This document shows, piece after piece, positions 14,268 to 36,606 of a stretch of 57,095 nucleotides of DNA (positions are counted from its first letter, which is position 1; the number at the start of each line of letters is the position of its first letter). A program made the translations under genes and the position numbers. The notes under the pieces were generated by a model. The model made no database searches. It was not told the origin of the DNA and saw only the letters and a program-made list of their open reading frames with translations. The DNA is from Oscillospiraceae bacterium. Its GTDB lineage: Bacteria > Bacillota > Clostridia > Oscillospirales > Oscillospiraceae. Where the stretch lies: NCBI GenBank assembly GCA_017522015.1, contig JAFXAW010000011.1:1-57095 (forward strand). The letters are read 5' to 3'.

Positions 14268-15320
14268 TCAGAAGTTCTCCGCAGTCTGGATGGGCTGAAC
14301 CTTCGTGCAGTAGGGCTCGAAGATTTTGACCAGCTCGTCGTAGTCATAGCCGATGGCCTCGCAGGTCTCGGTGTTGATGGTTGCGGTGCCGTTGTCGAAG
14401 GTGCGAACGGGCAGCTCGGCGGGATCGGCGCCGTTCACCAGAATTTCGCAGACCATTTGTGCGGTCTCGCGGCCCAGGTTGGCGTAGTCCACGCCGTAAC
14501 CCAGGAACGCGCCGTTGAGGGCGAAGGAGTCCGCGCCGGTGTAGTGCGGGATCTTGGCCTCGGCAAGCGCCTCATAGATGGCCAGCTCCGCGGTCATGAT
14601 GGTGTTGTCGGTGGGGGTGAAGACGGCGTCCACACCGTCGGCGATCAGCGCCTGCACGGCCTGAGAAACCTCGTCCGTGGTGGTGCCGGTGTATTCCTTA
14701 TAGGCAACGCCCTTGTTGGTCAGATATTCCTTTGCCGCGGCAATGGGGGTGGTGGAGGAATCCTCTCCGATGTTGTAAAGCAGGGCGATGTTGTCCGCAT
14801 CGGGATCGGCGGCAAAGATGAGATTCATCACAGCGTTGGTGTCCAGATAGTCAGAGGTGCCGGTGATGTTGGAACCGGGAGCCTCGAGCGAATCCACGAT
14901 CTGGCTGCCCACGGGGTCGGAAACCGCGGAGAACACAACGGGGATGCCGTTGTCCTCGGTGGCGGCCTGCATGGACGTTGCCACCATCGTCGTGATGCCA
15001 ACCATCAGGTCAACGTCATCGGCGATGAAGTTGGAAACGATCTGGTTAAGTACGGAAGCGTCGAGGTTGCAGACGTCATAGGAGATCTCGAACTTGACGT
15101 TGTTTTCTTCGCCAAGCTTTGCAAGCTCGGACTCAATGTTTTCCGCGATCTGCACCAGAGAGGCATCGTACACGAGGTTGCAAATGCCGACCTTATAGGT
15201 GGTGATGTCGTCGTCGCTGTTGTCGTCCGGCTTTCCGGCGGTGCCGCCGCAGGCGGCGAGCAGCAGAAGCGCAACAGCGCAAAGCAGAGCGGCCAGTTTT
15301 TTCATGGTCTTGATTTTCAT
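14268..15320 (-). CDS. trpX: Tryptophan-type ABC transporter substrate-binding lipoprotein
   Basis: 350 aa from ATG at 15320, with AAGGAG 10 bases before it. A lipoprotein signal ends at LLAAC with Cys about 24. The mature part is the ABC_sub_bind (PF04392) fold, recognised by KVGICNLV, ATEDNGIPVVFSAVSDPVGSQ and DAVFTPTDNTIM. The paralogue at 32673 shares this architecture. The leader carries a T-box with a Trp specifier, so binding of tryptophan is the best inference. Confidence 0.85.
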   Translation of the reverse strand: MKIKTMKKLAALLCAVALLLLAACGGTAGKPDDNSDDDITTYKVGICNLVYDASLVQIAENIESELAKLGEENNVKFEISYDVCNLDASVLNQIVSNFIADDVDLMVGITTMVATSMQAATEDNGIPVVFSAVSDPVGSQIVDSLEAPGSNITGTSDYLDTNAVMNLIFAADPDADNIALLYNIGEDSSTTPIAAAKEYLTNKGVAYKEYTGTTTDEVSQAVQALIADGVDAVFTPTDNTIMTAELAIYEALAEAKIPHYTGADSFALNGAFLGYGVDYANLGRETAQMVCEILVNGADPAELPVRTFDNGTATINTETCEAIGYDYDELVKIFEPYCTKVQPIQTAENF

Positions 15321-15370: not shown

Positions 15371-15640
15371 TAAAAAAACAGCCCCTGCCCCACACATGGG
15401 ACAAAAGCCGACTGCTTCTGCGATACCACCCAAATTGACGTATTCTACGTCCTCTCGCTTATGCGTTCCATCAAACGCATCCCGCCTGGTAACGGATGGG
15501 AACCCCGTCGATGCCTACTGAGGCGAATGAAGCCTGTTCGGGTCGCCCTCGGAAGTCCATTCATCAGCCGCTTGCCGCCCCGATTCCACCATCCGGAGCT
15601 CTCTGTGCGCTTGCCGCACTGATTACTTCTCTTCTTCAAA
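15371..15640 (-). ncRNA. T-box leader with UGG (tryptophan) specifier controlling trpXYZ
   Basis: On the minus strand the transcript starts with AGAAGAGAAGTAATCAG, then AGAGAGC and a GGATGGTGGAATCGG apical part typical of Stem I. The specifier lies in GATGAATGGACTTCCGAG, with TGG at 15559-15557 followed by A. The T-box core AATTTGGGTGGTATCGCAG is at 15436-15415. A terminator follows: GGCTTTTGTCCCA pairs (with G-U) with TGGGGCAGGGGC, then seven Ts at 15378-15372. Uncharged tRNA-Trp should favour the antiterminator and turn on uptake. Confidence 0.88.
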
Positions 15641-15665
15641 GGTTTATTTGTATAAACTTGCTTTT

Positions 15666-30692: not shown

Positions 30693-31829
30693 TTACTTGA
30701 CAAAGAGGCTGCCCACGCCGTCCTTGTAGAGGATGGCGCTCGCGTTCTTGACGGTGTTGCCGTCCGCACCCCAGGTCATGGTGCCGGTCACGCCGGTGTA
30801 CTCGAGGGTGGTCATGGTCTTGGCGAGCTCTTCACCGGAGGTGGAGCCGGCGGCCTCGATGGCGGCCTTGATGATGTAAATGGCGTCGTAGCCGTCAGCA
30901 GCGAACTGGTCGGGAGTGGCGTTGTAAGCCTTCTTGTAAGCCTCGACGAAGGCCTTGACGTTGGCTTCTTCGGAATCAGCAGCGAAGGGGGTGAGCATCA
31001 GGACGTTGTCCGCAATGCTGGGATCCTGCTCGACCTTGCCGAGGATACCGTCCAGACCGTCGGCGCCGAAGAAGTAAACATCGCTGGCGAACTTGCCCTT
31101 GGCCTGGGTGAGGAAGGTGGAAGCTTCTTCAGCGTAGATGGGCATGAAGACCAGCTTGACGCCGGAGGCGACCAGCGCATCGATCTGGGTGGAGAAGTCG
31201 GTGGCAGTGGTGGTGGTGAAGGTCTGGGTCTCAACGATGCTCAGGTCGAGCTTCTCGCACTCGGCGACGAAAGCTTCGTACAGGCCGACGGAGTAGTCAT
31301 AGTCGCTCTCGTAGAGAACGCCGACTTCGGTGGCCATCTCGTTGTCCTTGATGTAGTTGGCAGCAGCAGCGCCCTGATAGGAGTCATAGAAGCAGACGCG
31401 GAAAGCCTTGTCGTTGCCTTCGATGGCCTTGTCAGCGGAGCCGGAGGGCGTGAGGAGCAGGACGTCGTCCGCAACAGCGGCTGCGGTGATGGAAGCAGTC
31501 TCGCCGGAGAACACGCCGCCGAGAGAAACATCCATGCCGTCGTCCATCAGCTTGCCGTAAGCGCTGACAGCGCTCTCGGGATCAGCCTGGGAGTCTTCGA
31601 ACAGCAGCTCGATCTGCTTGCCGTCGATGCCGCCCGCGGCGTTGATCTCGTCAACCGCGATCTTGGCACCGTTGCGCACGCTCGTGCCGTAGTTGGCGTA
31701 GCTGCCGGTCAGAGGGCCGATGCCACCGATCTTGATGACATCATCGTTGTTGTCGCCCTGGGCACCGCCGCAGGCGACCATGCAGGCCATCATCACGAGG
31801 GCCAGCATCATGCATAAAATCTTTTTCAT
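30693..31829 (-). CDS. livJ: Branched-chain amino acid ABC transporter substrate-binding lipoprotein LivJ
   Basis: 378 aa from ATG at 31829 (AAGGAG upstream). The lipobox ends at VAC with Cys about 20. The mature part follows the LivJ/periplasmic-binding type 1 fold (IKIGGIGPLTGSYANYG, AVDEINAAGGIDGKQIELL, DSQADPESAV). C-terminal YDAIYIIKAAIEAAG is also typical. It is first in the liv operon, behind a promoter, a leader peptide rich in Ile/Val/Leu codons and an intrinsic terminator. Leu/Ile/Val as ligands are inferred from family and leader. Confidence 0.9.
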   Translation of the reverse strand: MKKILCMMLALVMMACMVACGGAQGDNNDDVIKIGGIGPLTGSYANYGTSVRNGAKIAVDEINAAGGIDGKQIELLFEDSQADPESAVSAYGKLMDDGMDVSLGGVFSGETASITAAAVADDVLLLTPSGSADKAIEGNDKAFRVCFYDSYQGAAAANYIKDNEMATEVGVLYESDYDYSVGLYEAFVAECEKLDLSIVETQTFTTTTATDFSTQIDALVASGVKLVFMPIYAEEASTFLTQAKGKFASDVYFFGADGLDGILGKVEQDPSIADNVLMLTPFAADSEEANVKAFVEAYKKAYNATPDQFAADGYDAIYIIKAAIEAAGSTSGEELAKTMTTLEYTGVTGTMTWGADGNTVKNASAILYKDGVGSLFVK

Positions 31830-31990: not shown

Positions 31991-32122
31991 TCAAGCAAGA
32001 ATAAGCGCTGCCAGAGCAGCGCCCAAAATCACGATGGAGCACATACAGGAGAAATCAGCCTCTGTCATGGCGGTGGAGGCAAAACAAGCATTTTTCGCGC
32101 CTGCAAAAGCAAAACGCTTCAT
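31991..32122 (-). CDS. Predicted branched-chain amino acid leader peptide (liv attenuator)
   Basis: 43 codons, ATG at 32122, AGAGG 10 bases upstream, TGA at 31993. The last 14 residues (30-43) are Ile-Val-Ile-Leu, Gly-Ala-Ala-Leu, Ala-Ala-Leu-Ile-Leu-Ala, eight of them branched-chain, near the stop codon as in ilv/leu attenuators. It lies between a consensus promoter and an intrinsic terminator upstream of livJ. Four GCGCT/AGCGC-type segments (32016-32024, 32004-32011, 31936-31944, 31903-31909) can pair in alternative ways. It may instead be a short hydrophobic membrane peptide; position and terminator favour a leader. Confidence 0.6.
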   Translation of the reverse strand: MKRFAFAGAKNACFASTAMTEADFSCMCSIVILGAALAALILA

Positions 32123-32154
32123 GCTGCAACAGCCTCTTTTATTCATTTTATATG

Positions 32155-32183: not shown

Positions 32184-32377
32184 GATGCATAACCGACAAA
32201 ATAGAACGCGGATTTTATGACGCGCTTGACCAAGAACGACAAAGAGAGGCCTTGGGATGGATAAATATACATATTAAATTTAACCGCGAAGCGGGCGAAC
32301 TGTTTTTGACAGCTTTCATTTGTCAATATGCAACAAAAAATGCGCCGGCTTGCCGCGAACATTGGGCAATCCTCCGC

Positions 32378-32406
32378 TTGACTTTATGACTGCAAAGCGT
32401 TACAAT
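32378..32406 (+). promoter_or_regulatory. Sigma-A promoter of the aromatic leader/ABC cassette
   Basis: TTGACT (32378-32383), 17-bp spacer, TACAAT (32401-32406). Transcription from about 32413 would give a 260-nt leader before the binding-protein gene. Confidence 0.75.
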
Positions 32407-32457
32407 GCAAAAAAATTAAAGCATTAAGCGCGAATGCGCAGGAAGGAGTCCGCTGTA

Positions 32458-32568
32458 ATGAAGAGCAAAGTCATCCGCAGTTGTGTTGAGTTTTATAGCT
32501 TTACGTTTGCTCGCTTTGCGGGCTATTTTGCGTTTCCCAAAAATGACCTTCCTGTGCGAGAAAGCTGA
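32458..32568 (+). CDS. Predicted Phe/Tyr leader peptide of a ribosome-stalling attenuator
   Basis: 36 codons with AGGAAGGAG 9 bases before ATG and TGA at 32566. Residues 12-26 hold six Phe (12, 15, 17, 20, 24, 26) and two Tyr (13, 23); every Phe codon is TTT and both Tyr are TAT. It lies between a near-consensus promoter and a 14-bp terminator hairpin, upstream of an aromatic-type ABC importer. When ribosomes stall for charged tRNA-Phe or tRNA-Tyr, GAGAA-A-GCTG (32558-32567) can pair with the 5' arm of the terminator; a ribosome at the stop codon would cover it. This fits pheA/pheST-style attenuation. Confidence 0.8.
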   Translation: MKSKVIRSCVEFYSFTFARFAGYFAFPKNDLPVRES

Positions 32569-32640
32569 ACTGCGCGTCTGAAATTTGTAGGTAAGCGGCT
32601 TCTCCCGGGAGGGAGGGGCCGCTTTCATTATTTTAACCAA
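32555..32640 (+). terminator. Antiterminator/terminator switch of the aromatic leader
   Basis: Terminator: AAGCGGCTTCTCCC (32593-32606) with GGGAGGGGCCGCTT (32611-32624), 14 bp, loop GGGA, then TCATTATTTT. Antiterminator: GAGAA(A)GCTG (32558-32567) pairs with CGGCTTCTC (32596-32604), 9 bp with one bulge and one G-T pair. The two are mutually exclusive. A 5-bp CTCGC/GCGAG pairing (about 32510-32514 with 32556-32560) could sequester the antiterminator strand. The T tract is broken. Confidence 0.72.
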
Positions 32641-32672
32641 AAAAATTTTTTAATCAAAAGGAGAGCCCCACA

Positions 32673-33662
32673 ATGAAAAAACTGCTTTCACTCATCCTCG
32701 CAGCGGTACTTTGCCTCTGCCTCGTCGCCTGCGGCGGCGAACCCGCCAAAGACAATAACGATGCAGGTAACGCCGATGGCGAGACCTATACCGTCGGCAT
32801 TTGCCAGTTGCTGCCGCATCCCTCGCTCGACAGCGCAACCCAGGGCTTCAAGGATGCGCTCAAGGAAGCCTTCGGCGACGCCGTTACCTTCAGCGAGGGC
32901 AACGCCGGCGGTGAAGCCACCAACTGCATCACCATCATCGACGGCTTCATCGCAGAGGATGTGGATCTGATCCTCGGCAACGCTACCCTGCCGCTGACGA
33001 CGGCGGCTTCGGCAACGGACACCATCCCGGTTCTGGGCACTTCCGTCACCGACTTTGCCTCCGCGCTGGGCATCACCGATTGGACCGGCACGGTTGGCGG
33101 CAACGTCTCCGGCGCTTCTGACCTTGCCCCGCTGGACGGCCAGGCCGAGGTGCTGCATGAGCTCTTCCCCGATGCGAAGACGGTGGGCCTGCTTTACTGC
33201 TCCGCTGAGGCCAACAGCATCTATCAGGTTGAAAACATCCGGAAGCATCTGGAAGGCTATGGCTACACCTGCACGAACTATGCGTTCAATGACGTGAACG
33301 ACCTTGCCAGCGTCACGCAGACCGCCTGTGACGGTTCGGACGTGATCTACATCCCCACCGACAACGTGGCTGCTGCCAACACCGAGACCATCGCCAACGT
33401 GGTTTTGGCTGCCGGCGTGCCGGTGATCAGCGGTGACGTCAGCACCTGCGGCGCATGCGGCGTGGCAATGCTTGGCATCGACTACTATGACCTTGGCTAC
33501 ACCACCGGTCAGATGGCTGTCCAGATTCTCAAGGGAGAGGCGGACATTTCCACCATGCCTGTCCAGTCCGTCACCGAATTCACCAAGGTTTACAATCCTG
33601 ACAACTGCGCTGCGCTCGACATCACGCCTCCCGAAGGCTACGTGAGCACCGCTGACCTGTAA
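32673..33662 (+). CDS. ABC transporter substrate-binding lipoprotein, predicted phenylalanine/tyrosine
   Basis: 329 aa. The lipobox ends at LVAC with Cys 20. The mature part is the ABC_sub_bind fold seen in TrpX: TYTVGICQLLPHPSLD, DTIPVLGTSVTDFASAL and DVIYIPTDNVAAANTE. It is a paralogue of the protein encoded at 14268-15320. SD AAAGGAG precedes the ATG. The leader peptide, rich in Phe and Tyr codons, suggests aromatic amino acids other than Trp as ligand. Confidence 0.82.
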   Translation: MKKLLSLILAAVLCLCLVACGGEPAKDNNDAGNADGETYTVGICQLLPHPSLDSATQGFKDALKEAFGDAVTFSEGNAGGEATNCITIIDGFIAEDVDLILGNATLPLTTAASATDTIPVLGTSVTDFASALGITDWTGTVGGNVSGASDLAPLDGQAEVLHELFPDAKTVGLLYCSAEANSIYQVENIRKHLEGYGYTCTNYAFNDVNDLASVTQTACDGSDVIYIPTDNVAAANTETIANVVLAAGVPVISGDVSTCGACGVAMLGIDYYDLGYTTGQMAVQILKGEADISTMPVQSVTEFTKVYNPDNCAALDITPPEGYVSTADL

Positions 33663-33758: not shown

Positions 33759-34706
33759 TTGGACTTCTTGTTAACATTTCTGCGTGCCACGCCCGGCTCG
33801 ATCGGTCAGGGTCTGATCTGGGGCATAATGGCCATTGGCGTTTACATCACGTATCGTGTCCTTGATATTGCGGACCTGACCGTGGATGGCTCTCTGTGCA
33901 CCGGCGGCGCACTGTGCGTTCTGCTGATTGTCAACGGCGTCAATCCCTGGGTCGCGCTGATCTGCGCTTTCCTTGTCGGCATGCTCGCCGGCCTGATCAC
34001 GGGATTGCTGCACACCGCCTGCGGAATACCGGCCATTTTGTCCGGCATTCTGACGCAGCTGGCGCTGTACTCCGTCAACCTGCGCATTATGGGCTGGGGC
34101 ACCGACGCCGGCACGCAGGCAACGCTGCCGGTCAGCGTGGACAAATTCCCGCTGGTGGTTTCTTCCCGCTTCGTGCGCGAGCTGGGCGTCAAAAACCCGA
34201 TTCTGATGCTCCTTATCCTCACGGTGATTGTGATCGGCGTCCTCTATTGGTTTTTCGGCACGGAGGTTGGCTGCTCGATTCGCGCCACCGGCGCCAATCA
34301 GAACATGGCACGTGCGCAGGGAATCAACACCAACGTCAACAAGGTTGTCGGCCTGATGGTCTCCAACGGTCTTGTTGCCCTTGCCGGCGGCCTTCTGGCA
34401 CAGTATCAGGGCAGCGCCACGATCGACATGGGGCGCGGCGCCATTGTGATCGGACTTGCCGCTGTGATCATCGGCGAAGTCGTTTTCAGCAAGGTTTTCC
34501 GCAATTTTGCCCTGCTGCTGCTTTCCTGCACCTTCGGTGCCATCATTTATTATTTTGTGATCCAGTTCGTGCTGCGGCTGGGCCTCTCCACAACAGATCT
34601 GAAGCTTCTCACTGCCGTTGTGGTGGCGATCTTCCTTGCCGTTCCCTATCTGAAGGGCAGGTATTTCTCAAAATCATCGAAAGCGAGGGCGTCCAGGCAT
34701 GCTTGA
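33759..34706 (+). CDS. ABC transporter permease of the aromatic cassette
   Basis: 315 aa, TTG start with CCGGAGGA 9 bases upstream. It has about 9 membrane segments, with GVYITYRVLDIADLTVDGSLCTGGAL near 27 and EVGCSIRATGANQNMARAQGI near 168, matching the TrpY-type permease at 13281. Its stop overlaps the ATPase start by 8 bp. It lies between the binding protein (97 bp gap) and the ATPase. Confidence 0.85.
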   Translation: MDFLLTFLRATPGSIGQGLIWGIMAIGVYITYRVLDIADLTVDGSLCTGGALCVLLIVNGVNPWVALICAFLVGMLAGLITGLLHTACGIPAILSGILTQLALYSVNLRIMGWGTDAGTQATLPVSVDKFPLVVSSRFVRELGVKNPILMLLILTVIVIGVLYWFFGTEVGCSIRATGANQNMARAQGINTNVNKVVGLMVSNGLVALAGGLLAQYQGSATIDMGRGAIVIGLAAVIIGEVVFSKVFRNFALLLLSCTFGAIIYYFVIQFVLRLGLSTTDLKLLTAVVVAIFLAVPYLKGRYFSKSSKARASRHA

Positions 34707-35493
34707 TGTTCAGAATATCGCTAAGACCTTCAACGCCGGAACGGTCAACGAAAAATGCGCGCTCGACAATCTCTCGCTGCATCTGAATGCCGGGGAGTTT
34801 TGCACGGTCATTGGCGGCAACGGCGCGGGAAAGTCCACGCTGCTCAACGCCGTGGCCGGCGTTTGGCCGGTCGATCGCGGCAGCATCTTCATCGACGGCC
34901 TGGATGTGACGCATCTGCCGGAATACAAGCGCGCAAAGTATATCGGGCGTGTGTTTCAGGATCCGATGACCGGCACGGCCGCCTCCATGCAGATCGAAGA
35001 AAATCTGGCGCTCGCCATGCGTCGCGGAAAAAAGCGTACGCTTCGCCGCGGCATCACAAAAGCAGAGCGTGAAGTGTATTATGAAAAGCTCAAAACGCTG
35101 GGGCTTGGGCTGGAGAGCCGCATGACCGCAAAGGTCGGCCTGCTTTCCGGCGGTCAGCGTCAGGCGCTGACGCTGCTTATGGCCTCGCTTCAGCAGCCGA
35201 AGCTCCTGCTGCTCGACGAGCACACCGCCGCGCTCGATCCGGCGACGGCGGCCAAGGTGCTGGAACTGTCCGACCGGATCGTGCAGGAGAACCAACTCAC
35301 CTGCCTGATGATTACGCACAACATGAGCGACGCCATCCGGCACGGTAACCGGCTGATTATGATGAACAACGGCCGCATTATTCTGGACATCTCGGGCGAA
35401 GAAAAGCGGCATCTCACGAAGTCGGAGCTGCTGGAAAAATTTGCCGAGGTTGCCGGCGTGCAGGAAGAGACCGATTCGGTGCTGCTGTCCTAA
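34699..35493 (+). CDS. ABC transporter ATP-binding protein of the aromatic cassette
   Basis: 264 aa. Walker A GGNGAGKST is near 39, FQDPMTGTAASM near 93, signature LLSGGQRQALTLL near 151, Walker B LLLLDEHTAALDP near 173, and H-loop MITHNMSDAIRHG near 208. It is a close paralogue of TrpZ at 12502. A hairpin (35513-35546, CCCGGC/GCCGGG) follows, with a weak T tract. Confidence 0.86.
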   Translation: MLDVQNIAKTFNAGTVNEKCALDNLSLHLNAGEFCTVIGGNGAGKSTLLNAVAGVWPVDRGSIFIDGLDVTHLPEYKRAKYIGRVFQDPMTGTAASMQIEENLALAMRRGKKRTLRRGITKAEREVYYEKLKTLGLGLESRMTAKVGLLSGGQRQALTLLMASLQQPKLLLLDEHTAALDPATAAKVLELSDRIVQENQLTCLMITHNMSDAIRHGNRLIMMNNGRIILDISGEEKRHLTKSELLEKFAEVAGVQEETDSVLLS

Positions 35494-35602
35494 GAAAATT
35501 ATTTTGATGATTTGCCCGGCTGCATTCTGCATTGGAAGCGGCCGGGTATTATTCAATTCGTTGGATTTAGACAATAAAGATTGCAGAAAGAGCGAAACAC
35601 GA

Positions 35603-36289
35603 GTGAGCAGATCTGTTCTGAAAAAAGCAATTAAGGATACATTTCCTGTTCTGACCGGCTACCTGGTTATCGGACTGAGCTTTGGAATTGTCCTGAGCAG
35701 CAGAGGCTACGGTCCGCTGTGGGCGGCCGGCTCCAGCCTGTTTATTTATGCTGGAACGATGCAGTTCGTGGCGGTGGAGCTGATGTACAGCGGGGCAAGC
35801 CTGCTGACCACGGCGCTGACCACGCTGGCGGTGAATATGCGGCATCTGTTTTACGGGTTGTCCATGATCGAACGCTATCGGGATACGGGAAAAGCCAAGC
35901 CCTATCTGATTTTCGGACTCACCGATGAGACCTTTTCGCTTGTCTGCGCGCCGACAGCGCTGGAACCGGGCAAGGAGAAGCTGTATTACTTCCTGGTTAC
36001 GCTGTTTGACCAGCTCTACTGGGTTCTGGGCTCCGTTCTGGGCTGCGCGCTGGGCTCTGTGCTTCCGTTCAATACGAAAGGCATTGATTTTGCGCTCACG
36101 GCGCTGTTTGTTTCGGTGGTGACCGAGCAGTGGCTCAGCAGCGATGACCATGTCCCGGTGCTGATGAGCATCGGGATCTCGGTGCTGTGCCGGCTGATTT
36201 TCGGAGCGGATCAGTTTCTGATTCCGGCCATCGTGCTGATATGGCTGGGGCTGACCCTCTATCGGAAGAGAGCGGAGGGCAAGGCATGA
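35603..36289 (+). CDS. azlC: AzlC-type branched-chain amino acid transport protein
   Basis: 228 aa from GTG at 35603. The frame is open further up, but the preceding part reads through the ABC gene end and is not AzlC-like. TFPVLTGYLVIGLSFGIVL near 13, SSLFIYAGTMQFVAVELM near 44 and LTTLAVNMRHLFYGLSM near 75 are typical of AzlC. AzlCD export branched-chain amino acids or analogues such as azaleucine. A weak AAAGAG is the only SD, so the start is not certain. Confidence 0.82.
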   Translation: MSRSVLKKAIKDTFPVLTGYLVIGLSFGIVLSSRGYGPLWAAGSSLFIYAGTMQFVAVELMYSGASLLTTALTTLAVNMRHLFYGLSMIERYRDTGKAKPYLIFGLTDETFSLVCAPTALEPGKEKLYYFLVTLFDQLYWVLGSVLGCALGSVLPFNTKGIDFALTALFVSVVTEQWLSSDDHVPVLMSIGISVLCRLIFGADQFLIPAIVLIWLGLTLYRKRAEGKA

Positions 36290-36606
36290 TGCATTCGGTG
36301 CTGATTATTGCGGTCGCCGCGGTGGTGACGGTTGCGCTGCGCTTTTTGCCCTTTGCGCTGTTCGGGGGCAAGCGGGAGACTCCGCCGTACATTCAATATC
36401 TGGGGCGGGTTTTGCCCTGCGCCGTCATGGGAATGCTGGTGATTTACTGCCTGCGGAACATCAATTTTACGGCCTCGCCCTTCGGCGTGCCGGAGCTGAT
36501 TGCCTGCGCAGTGGTGGTTGGCTTGCATATCTGGAAGCGCAGCTCGATTCTGAGCATTCTCGGCGGAACGGCCTGTTATGTGCTGCTGGTGCAGTTCGTG
36601 TTTTGA
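36286..36606 (+). CDS. azlD: AzlD-type branched-chain amino acid transport partner
   Basis: 106 aa, ATGA overlap with azlC. It has four hydrophobic helices. ALRFLPFALFGGKRETPPYIQYLGRVLPCAVMGMLVIYCLRN matches AzlD, including the conserved RxLPFA and the PxxxMxxLVxYCL region. It forms the exporter with AzlC. Confidence 0.88.
   Translation: MMHSVLIIAVAAVVTVALRFLPFALFGGKRETPPYIQYLGRVLPCAVMGMLVIYCLRNINFTASPFGVPELIACAVVVGLHIWKRSSILSILGGTACYVLLVQFVF

Follow-up and report, generated by a model that had tools for sequence, protein, structure and literature searches.

A putative phenylalanine/tyrosine leader-peptide attenuator precedes an aromatic amino acid importer operon in an Oscillospiraceae bacterium

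The 5′ leader of an ABC importer operon in an Oscillospiraceae bacterium is very probably a ribosome-mediated transcription attenuator, which would sense the charging of tRNA-Phe and tRNA-Tyr. Comparative sequence analysis demonstrates a leader open-reading frame (ORF), its enrichment in Phe and Tyr codons, a hairpin inside the ORF, an intrinsic terminator and the gene context; from these we infer that the ribosome stalls, which strand acts as antiterminator and in which direction the operon responds. We class the leader as a new family of ribosome-mediated attenuators, a known mechanism. It lies in a 57,095 nt stretch of DNA, analysed whole (which we refer to as the window), from a 1.87 Mb genome in 49 contigs (91% complete), and the substrate-binding protein encoded behind it is 97% identical to that of ‘Oscillospiraceae bacterium isolate SIG483’, the closest named record found. 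The initial annotation of the window had proposed a Phe/Tyr leader-peptide attenuator in front of an aromatic importer, and this core claim is supported by the leaders of relatives, in which the ORF is kept together with its Phe/Tyr codon class and the terminator, and by the same element in front of phenylalanine biosynthesis genes.

All features of the locus are on the forward strand. A sigma-70-type promoter, TTGACT-17-TACAAT (32378-32406, 10 of 12 consensus matches), is followed by the Shine-Dalgarno (SD) sequence AAGGAG (32443-32448) and a 36-codon leader ORF running from an ATG at 32458 to a TGA at 32568 (32458-32568; peptide MKSKVIRSCVEFYSFTFARFAGYFAFPKNDLPVRES). Phe codons occupy positions 12, 15, 17, 20, 24 and 26 and Tyr codons positions 13 and 23, which places six TTT and two TAT in codons 12-26, the 15-codon run originally described; the near-consensus promoter, the SD and the coordinates and codon counts of the initial annotation were likewise correct. 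An ORF of this kind, short, preceded by an SD and with the codons of the regulated amino acids clustered, is what a leader-peptide attenuator is expected to carry. The hairpin GCTCGC-TTT-GCGGGC is embedded in codons 18-22 (32509-32523, attenuator strands 1 and 2), the ORF ends in GAGAAAGCTG (32558-32567), which on the minimum-energy fold is the candidate antiterminator strand in this genus, and the intrinsic terminator hairpin (strands 3 and 4, 32593-32624) with its U-rich tail (32625-32634) stands before the importer SD (32658-32663). The importer itself consists of a TrpX-like substrate-binding lipoprotein (PF04392, 32673-33662), an ABC permease (BPD_transp_2, 33759-34706) and an ABC ATPase (34699-35493), directly 3′ of which lie azlC and azlD (35525-36606), close behind the importer genes and perhaps in the same operon or co-regulated. 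In the spacer of the promoter (32378-32406), as in those of orthologues, TTAAAG often follows TTGACTTTA, and TTGACTTTA...TTAAAG reads as an inverted repeat across the core promoter, a possible operator.

Matches to the binding protein at an E-value of 1e-75 occurred in 183 of 400 family genomes, and 121 orthologue upstream regions from the same family (41 from search loci and 80 fetched), a subset of all those matching, were examined for leaders. A rule calling for an SD, 8-75 codons and at least five Phe, Tyr or Trp within 20 codons flagged 42 regions, 36 of which were kept after inspection by eye; the six dropped (L045, L048, L094, L103, L113 and L121) were unlike the rest and lacked the motif described below. 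Relatives lacking the ORF or its Phe/Tyr codons had been named as grounds for abandoning the proposal: both are kept where a leader exists, 85 of the 121 regions are leader-less by the rule, and the proposal has therefore survived this test only among the leader-bearing regions. One leader with only four Phe/Tyr codons (G119) was missed by the rule and later matched by a covariance model. The leader-less relatives mostly have their promoter close to the gene (by eye), and a TTGACT box was found by a simple rule at the equivalent promoter place in 28 of the 36 leader-bearing regions.

Pooled, the 36 leaders contain 178 Phe (12.9%), 133 Tyr (9.7%) and no Trp in 1375 codons (for example MKQSSGFYFIYAARFYAGRYFAVRVYPSYEA, MMSRFYFRYTASRFAGRYFAMSF and MKQLIVCTMNNVNSVSFYAQARNAFAGFFGFVYFYFYFF). 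The order of residues is free across leaders and the Phe/Tyr codon class is kept; many share a recurring peptide motif, R-x(0-2)-[FY]-A-G, outside which the peptide is not conserved (by eye). The sister species has an identical leader peptide and its terminator keeps all 14 pairs. An SD, an ORF with at least five Phe/Tyr in 20 codons and a terminator occurred together in 27 of the 118 orthologue upstream regions (of the 121) that were at least 300 nt long, versus 0.0 per set in five dinucleotide-shuffled sets, and ten other residue pairs put through the same combination gave 0 to 15 regions, the 15 belonging to Ala+Gly.

The recurring R..AG of the leader peptides is encoded by the stem GCTCGC...GCGGGC inside the ORF, a hairpin which did not feature in the initial annotation. 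Its hexamer was found in 32 of the 36 leaders (26 paired at 6/6, five at 5/6 and one at 4/6), giving the hairpin (1:2) overlapping the control codons which is typical of leader-peptide attenuators. These 32 leaders, comprising 31 distinct rows, were aligned; L114, L124, L128 and L133, which have no hairpin hexamer and, by eye, no [FY]AG motif, were excluded. Across the distinct rows two-sided changes occur in five of seven pairs, none of 500 shuffles reached any of the five measures, and slid versions of the hairpin pair at 26-50%. The Ala codon of the motif is GCG in 26 of 29 cases and GCA in three; in the rest of these leaders, as in background ORFs (the long ORFs of the fetched loci, under a rough filter), GCC and GCT together supply 66% of the Ala codons. 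A permutation test of the hairpin gave 1/10000; both this test and the Ala-codon count lean towards pairing, because the list of 3′-arm hexamers was drawn up post hoc, without GCC or GCT, and the loop length was picked for best pairing, and the fairer count is that by column, with 96.3% of hairpin cells paired (0 of 500 shuffles).

TnaC is an arrest peptide which senses Trp, and the short motif that recurs in so many of the present leaders could be taken for the arrest motif of a peptide sensing free Phe/Tyr in the exit tunnel. We regard this as very unlikely because the motif follows the pairing of the RNA: a 5′ arm that reads CTC or TGC instead of CGC has a partner that reads GAG or GCA, respectively, instead of GCG, so that R becomes L or C and, in the former case, A becomes E; outside the motif no conservation is apparent by eye, and Phe and Tyr are retained as a codon class, with Trp absent. 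Since these compensatory changes alter the peptide, and the synonymous choice of Ala codon is fixed, RNA pairing rather than the peptide appears to be under selection at the in-ORF hairpin.

The terminator (32593-32624) has 14 pairs, nine of them G-C and two G-U, such that the earlier description of a perfect 14-bp GC-rich hairpin holds for its length and composition, ‘perfect’ being slightly too strong, and its U tract is poor (TCATTATTTT). Across the aligned leaders 96.6% of terminator cells are paired, a level reached by none of 500 shuffles, and 71 cells are changed on both sides; two-sided changes occur in 12 of 13 pairs, a number which 5 of 500 shuffles reach. By a fixed rule a terminator-like stem was found for all 36 leaders, that of L128 being poor, with T-rich tails following, and an intrinsic terminator thus lies between the leader ORF and the first gene, as in known leader-peptide attenuators. 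It is conceivable that the ORF is translated and the terminator real, yet the output is translational, through access to the importer start site, or the terminator is constitutive and sets a basal level. This would suit the poor U tract of the window's copy and the weakly supported antiterminator (see below), but it fits badly with covariation in 12 of 13 terminator pairs with T-rich tails behind them; a codon-specific ORF immediately upstream would be superfluous to a constitutive terminator, and the importer SD at 32658-32663 falls outside the proposed switching helices, and overall we judge such an output very improbable.

Under transcription attenuation, the ribosome would translate the 36-codon leader behind RNA polymerase. 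With ample Phe and Tyr it would reach the stop codon and cover the leader end, the GC-rich terminator (3:4) would form and transcription of the importer would stop. Scarcity of Phe or Tyr would cause it to stall on the Phe/Tyr cluster overlapping the in-ORF hairpin (1:2), a downstream strand would then pair with the terminator 5′ arm, the terminator would fail and the aromatic importer would be made; this downstream strand would be the 3′ arm of the hairpin in many relatives and the leader end in this genus.

The initial annotation had paired the leader end with the terminator 5′ arm: GAGAAAGCTG (32558-32567) can indeed pair, bulged, with CGGCTTCTC (32596-32604), and does so in the minimum-energy fold lacking strand 4 with no ribosome at the stop codon, although the pairing is readable in this genus only, where covariation is no test of it because the two leaders of the genus are identical. 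In many relatives the 3′ arm of the in-ORF hairpin can pair with the terminator 5′ arm instead, and in the window's copy a further alternative fold pairs the 3′ side of the hairpin with the leader end. Over a wide region, duplex energies hardly differed from those of shuffled sequences (mean z −0.69, 32 leaders), and as they are indistinguishable from shuffles on average, no single pairing is claimed for all leaders. For strand 2:3, own pairs did only marginally better than swapped ones, with 1062 of 20000 permutations reaching the same level and a rank-based Wilcoxon p of 0.26. A helix of the hairpin 3′ arm and the next codons with the terminator 5′ arm was 84.1% paired versus 81.5% when shuffled (8 of 500), its covariation score was reached by 8 of 500 shuffles and it paired at 47-54% when slid, and its number of pairs with two-sided change (306 of 500) and of pair types (355 of 500) was no better than shuffles; this family-wide 2:3 pairing is poor in the window's own copy (−5.8 kcal/mol). 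Folds of the ribosome states, which use footprints of assumed size, predict more upstream pairing of strand 3 for a ribosome stalled 5′ of the hairpin than for one that has reached the stop codon in 25 of the 32 leaders, and more than in the absence of a ribosome in 21 of them (means of 0.61 stalled, 0.50 at the stop codon and 0.54 with no ribosome). In the window's copy, antiterminator pairing is 0.65 with no ribosome, the same when stalled and 0.34 with a ribosome at the stop codon; because the fold without a ribosome allows the antiterminator here, the untranslated state may read through, which the untranslated E. coli trp leader does not. Alignment of related leaders, the check first suggested for this locus, thus retains the Phe/Tyr codon run and shows covariation of the in-ORF hairpin and the terminator, the modelled antiterminator helices, in both the hairpin-arm and the leader-end versions, being weakly supported.

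The same element also occurs in front of other genes. A covariance model (R1) built from 32 aligned leaders found one strong site in this genome, that in the window (89 bits, E-value 3.5e-24; the next scored 26 bits). Across the 400 family genomes at an E-value of 1e-8, in a search of a size (over 40 genomes) at which weak matches are lost, R1 gave 56 matches in 51 genomes and 20 of 106 genera, 32 of which are matches by construction because the model was trained on them. Contexts, taken from fetched neighbourhoods and from positions beside binding-protein matches, place 42 of the 56 before the importer, ten of them outside the training set (nine of the ten with at least five aromatic codons in 20), and seven before prephenate dehydratase (pheA-type) genes, with shikimate pathway genes beside some. 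A further three precede phenylacetate-CoA ligase genes, one precedes a chorismate mutase-dehydroquinate synthase (aroB) fusion with a leader of only four aromatic codons in 20, one, in a leader rich in Ile/Leu/Val, precedes a livJ-type gene, and two resemble, by eye, the ends of unrelated genes with terminators. The fusion (L233:1477-2766, reverse strand) holds a CM_2 chorismate mutase and a 3-dehydroquinate synthase in one ORF, downstream of the weak aromatic leader. Two of the three phenylacetate-CoA ligases (PaaK) were scored by NCBIfam at 511 and 522 bits, below the cut-off of 646; the three leaders are L168, L231 and L240, and by eye indolepyruvate oxidoreductase-like genes lie upstream in L168, a context which suggests arylacetate salvage into aromatic amino acids.

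Prephenate dehydratase genes were present in 121 of a sample of 150 genomes and were preceded by the element in three of the 121; for that of this genome (C32:11489), the nearest R1 match scores 19.7 bits and lies ~6 kb away. At a loose threshold (E-value 0.05) R1 matched in 106 of the 150 genomes, many of the matches being short and covering only the terminator part. Among 197 genomes of the order, seven had an R1 match, five of them outside the family: four genomes, all from a single genus in another family, have it at the importer, and the fifth, from a third family, has it both before the importer and before a DUF554-pheA pair. Were the ORF a chance occurrence in the 5′ UTR, with a DNA-binding repressor controlling the operon through the shared promoter element TTGACTTTA...TTAAAG, then it would be hard to explain why the codon class, the hairpin and the terminator are conserved and recur in front of other genes of aromatic metabolism, and we consider this extremely unlikely, even though a simple promoter call places TTAAAG in the spacer of 14 of 36 leader-bearing and 17 of 82 leader-less regions; a repressor may work alongside the leader rather than in its place.

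The T-box covariance model (RF00230) gave no match at the leader, either in the window at gathering score or in 32200-32800 up to an E-value of 5, and Rfam 15 at gathering score gave none at this leader nor at the leaders of 22 other loci, other Rfam families matching elsewhere in those loci. Rfam has amino acid leader families for Phe, Trp, His, Leu and Thr, none of which matched at gathering score in the window or the 22 leader loci, or up to an E-value of 5 within 32200-32800. With no match at the leader, its identification as a T-box or another Rfam family was rejected. The one T-box found by Rfam 15 at gathering score within the window (15394-15648, reverse strand, 102 bits) precedes a paralogous importer operon (substrate-binding protein at 14349-15305) and has the specifier GAA-UGG (Trp), read by the rule GAA...XXXA as set out in a PMC5794164 legend. 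Outside the family, one orthologue (L015) has a T-box reading GAA-UAC (Tyr) and another (L034) a T-box with UUC (Phe) if right-aligned with L015, GUU being the other possible reading.

The three solved relatives found for the binding protein, which show its fold, bind Tyr, Trp and Phe, and Glu263 gives CD0873 its Tyr preference, according to the sections available of PMC6816091. Asp255 occupies the place of Glu263 in the window's protein, which suggests Tyr as a ligand; the residue there is Glu or Asp in 42 of the 43 leader-class proteins of the set and in 42 of its 43 leader-less ones, whereas the Trp-T-box paralogue has Ala. Two details fit poorly: L034, with its possible Phe specifier, also has Asp at this place, and at the second selectivity site, which is Gln in the S. 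pneumoniae Trp binder, the paralogue retains Tyr. Loss of a C. difficile transporter, with a binding protein modelled on 3LFT, has been tied to lower Tyr and Phe uptake (PMC5951980, in part). From homology, T-box specifiers, this published transporter and gene context, we infer that the window's importer carries Tyr/Phe, and by homology and the literature the controlled gene would, as in other attenuators, make or import the sensed amino acid. The name TrpX was rejected for the binding protein because its score of 209.5 bits is below the equivalog cut-off of NF041285 (390); the Trp-T-box paralogue also reaches only 210.2.

A quick tree covering 89 binding proteins (43 with a leader, 43 with neither and three with a T-box, class labels being assigned by hand) requires the leader to have been gained or lost 16 times, at least nine of these events being forced by well-supported branches, versus a shuffled mean of 29.8; the leader therefore clusters on the tree yet comes and goes. 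In two genomes the binding-protein genes of the importer stand in tandem, each behind a Phe/Tyr leader of its own (L038 and L084 in G075, L055 and L069 in G369).

A second candidate leader lies on the opposite strand of the window (31991-32146), its ORF ending in CSIVILGAALAALILA and accompanied by an internal hairpin and terminator-like stems, before a livJ-type gene (30693-31829); it is short, with no clear SD at the first ATG. Elsewhere, strongly Ile/Leu/Val-rich leader ORFs with a terminator (by eye) precede livJ-type genes in G232 and G035; in G123 an Ile/Leu/Val-rich open stretch with an ambiguous start and a terminator by eye does so, and that of G120 is weaker. A close livJ relative occurred in only 5 of 120 genomes.

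The pheL-pheA and pheM-pheST attenuators of enteric bacteria share with the present leaders a Phe-rich leader ORF, overlapping hairpins and an intrinsic terminator, and some relatives here likewise control chorismate mutase/prephenate dehydratase; the present family differs in its Bacillota hosts, its mixed Phe and Tyr codons, its mainly importer targets and the lack of an Rfam match at the leaders searched. A further correction to the initial annotation is that published work already includes leader peptides in Bacillota (PMC2965389, PMC5794164, PMC8632094; sources available in part). Excerpts of these describe a His leader of hisS*/hisZ in bacilli, a leader peptide replacing a T-box in Bacillota, though for another amino acid, other genes and Bacilli (Naville and Gautheret 2010, PMC2965389), and a Leu-rich ilv-leu attenuator of Staphylococcus aureus with experimental support, again leader-peptide attenuation in Bacillota, though of branched-chain amino acid biosynthesis (PMC5794164). 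Closer in codon content are uORFC-13-1, with Phe codons before aroF in Acholeplasma, a different host (PMC8632094), and two uORFs associated with the shikimate pathway that contain Phe and Tyr (PMC6429828), all of them short ORFs before aromatic pathway genes; the available portions of these two sources mention no importer target. T-box control of TrpXYZ importers, for example in Streptococcus suis (PMC9382623, in part), concerns the same transporter family and tRNA-charging logic, unlike the present leader in that tRNA is bound directly; the window's own T-box is on the paralogue, with a Trp specifier. Among the matches listed from the open-access literature, without most subscription journals or supplements, none described a Phe/Tyr leader, either for this importer or within this bacterial family.

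It is plausible, if somewhat short of probable, that a branch of the Clostridia (the window's family and single genera of two neighbouring families) has built a leader-peptide regulon, possibly independently of the Proteobacteria and alongside or replacing T-boxes, in which Phe/Tyr leaders would govern the uptake of aromatic amino acids, the synthesis of phenylalanine and the salvage of phenylacetate, and Ile/Leu/Val-rich leaders the uptake of branched-chain amino acids; candidates of either type face one another in the window. The attenuator proposed here would extend E. coli-type attenuation through Phe/Tyr codons to one group of gut Clostridia, where T-boxes would be expected, and suggests Tyr/Phe as substrates for importers that are often named for tryptophan. 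This one transporter family offers three states for comparison, leader peptide, T-box and neither, and the evolutionary swapping of regulators is therefore directly testable within it.
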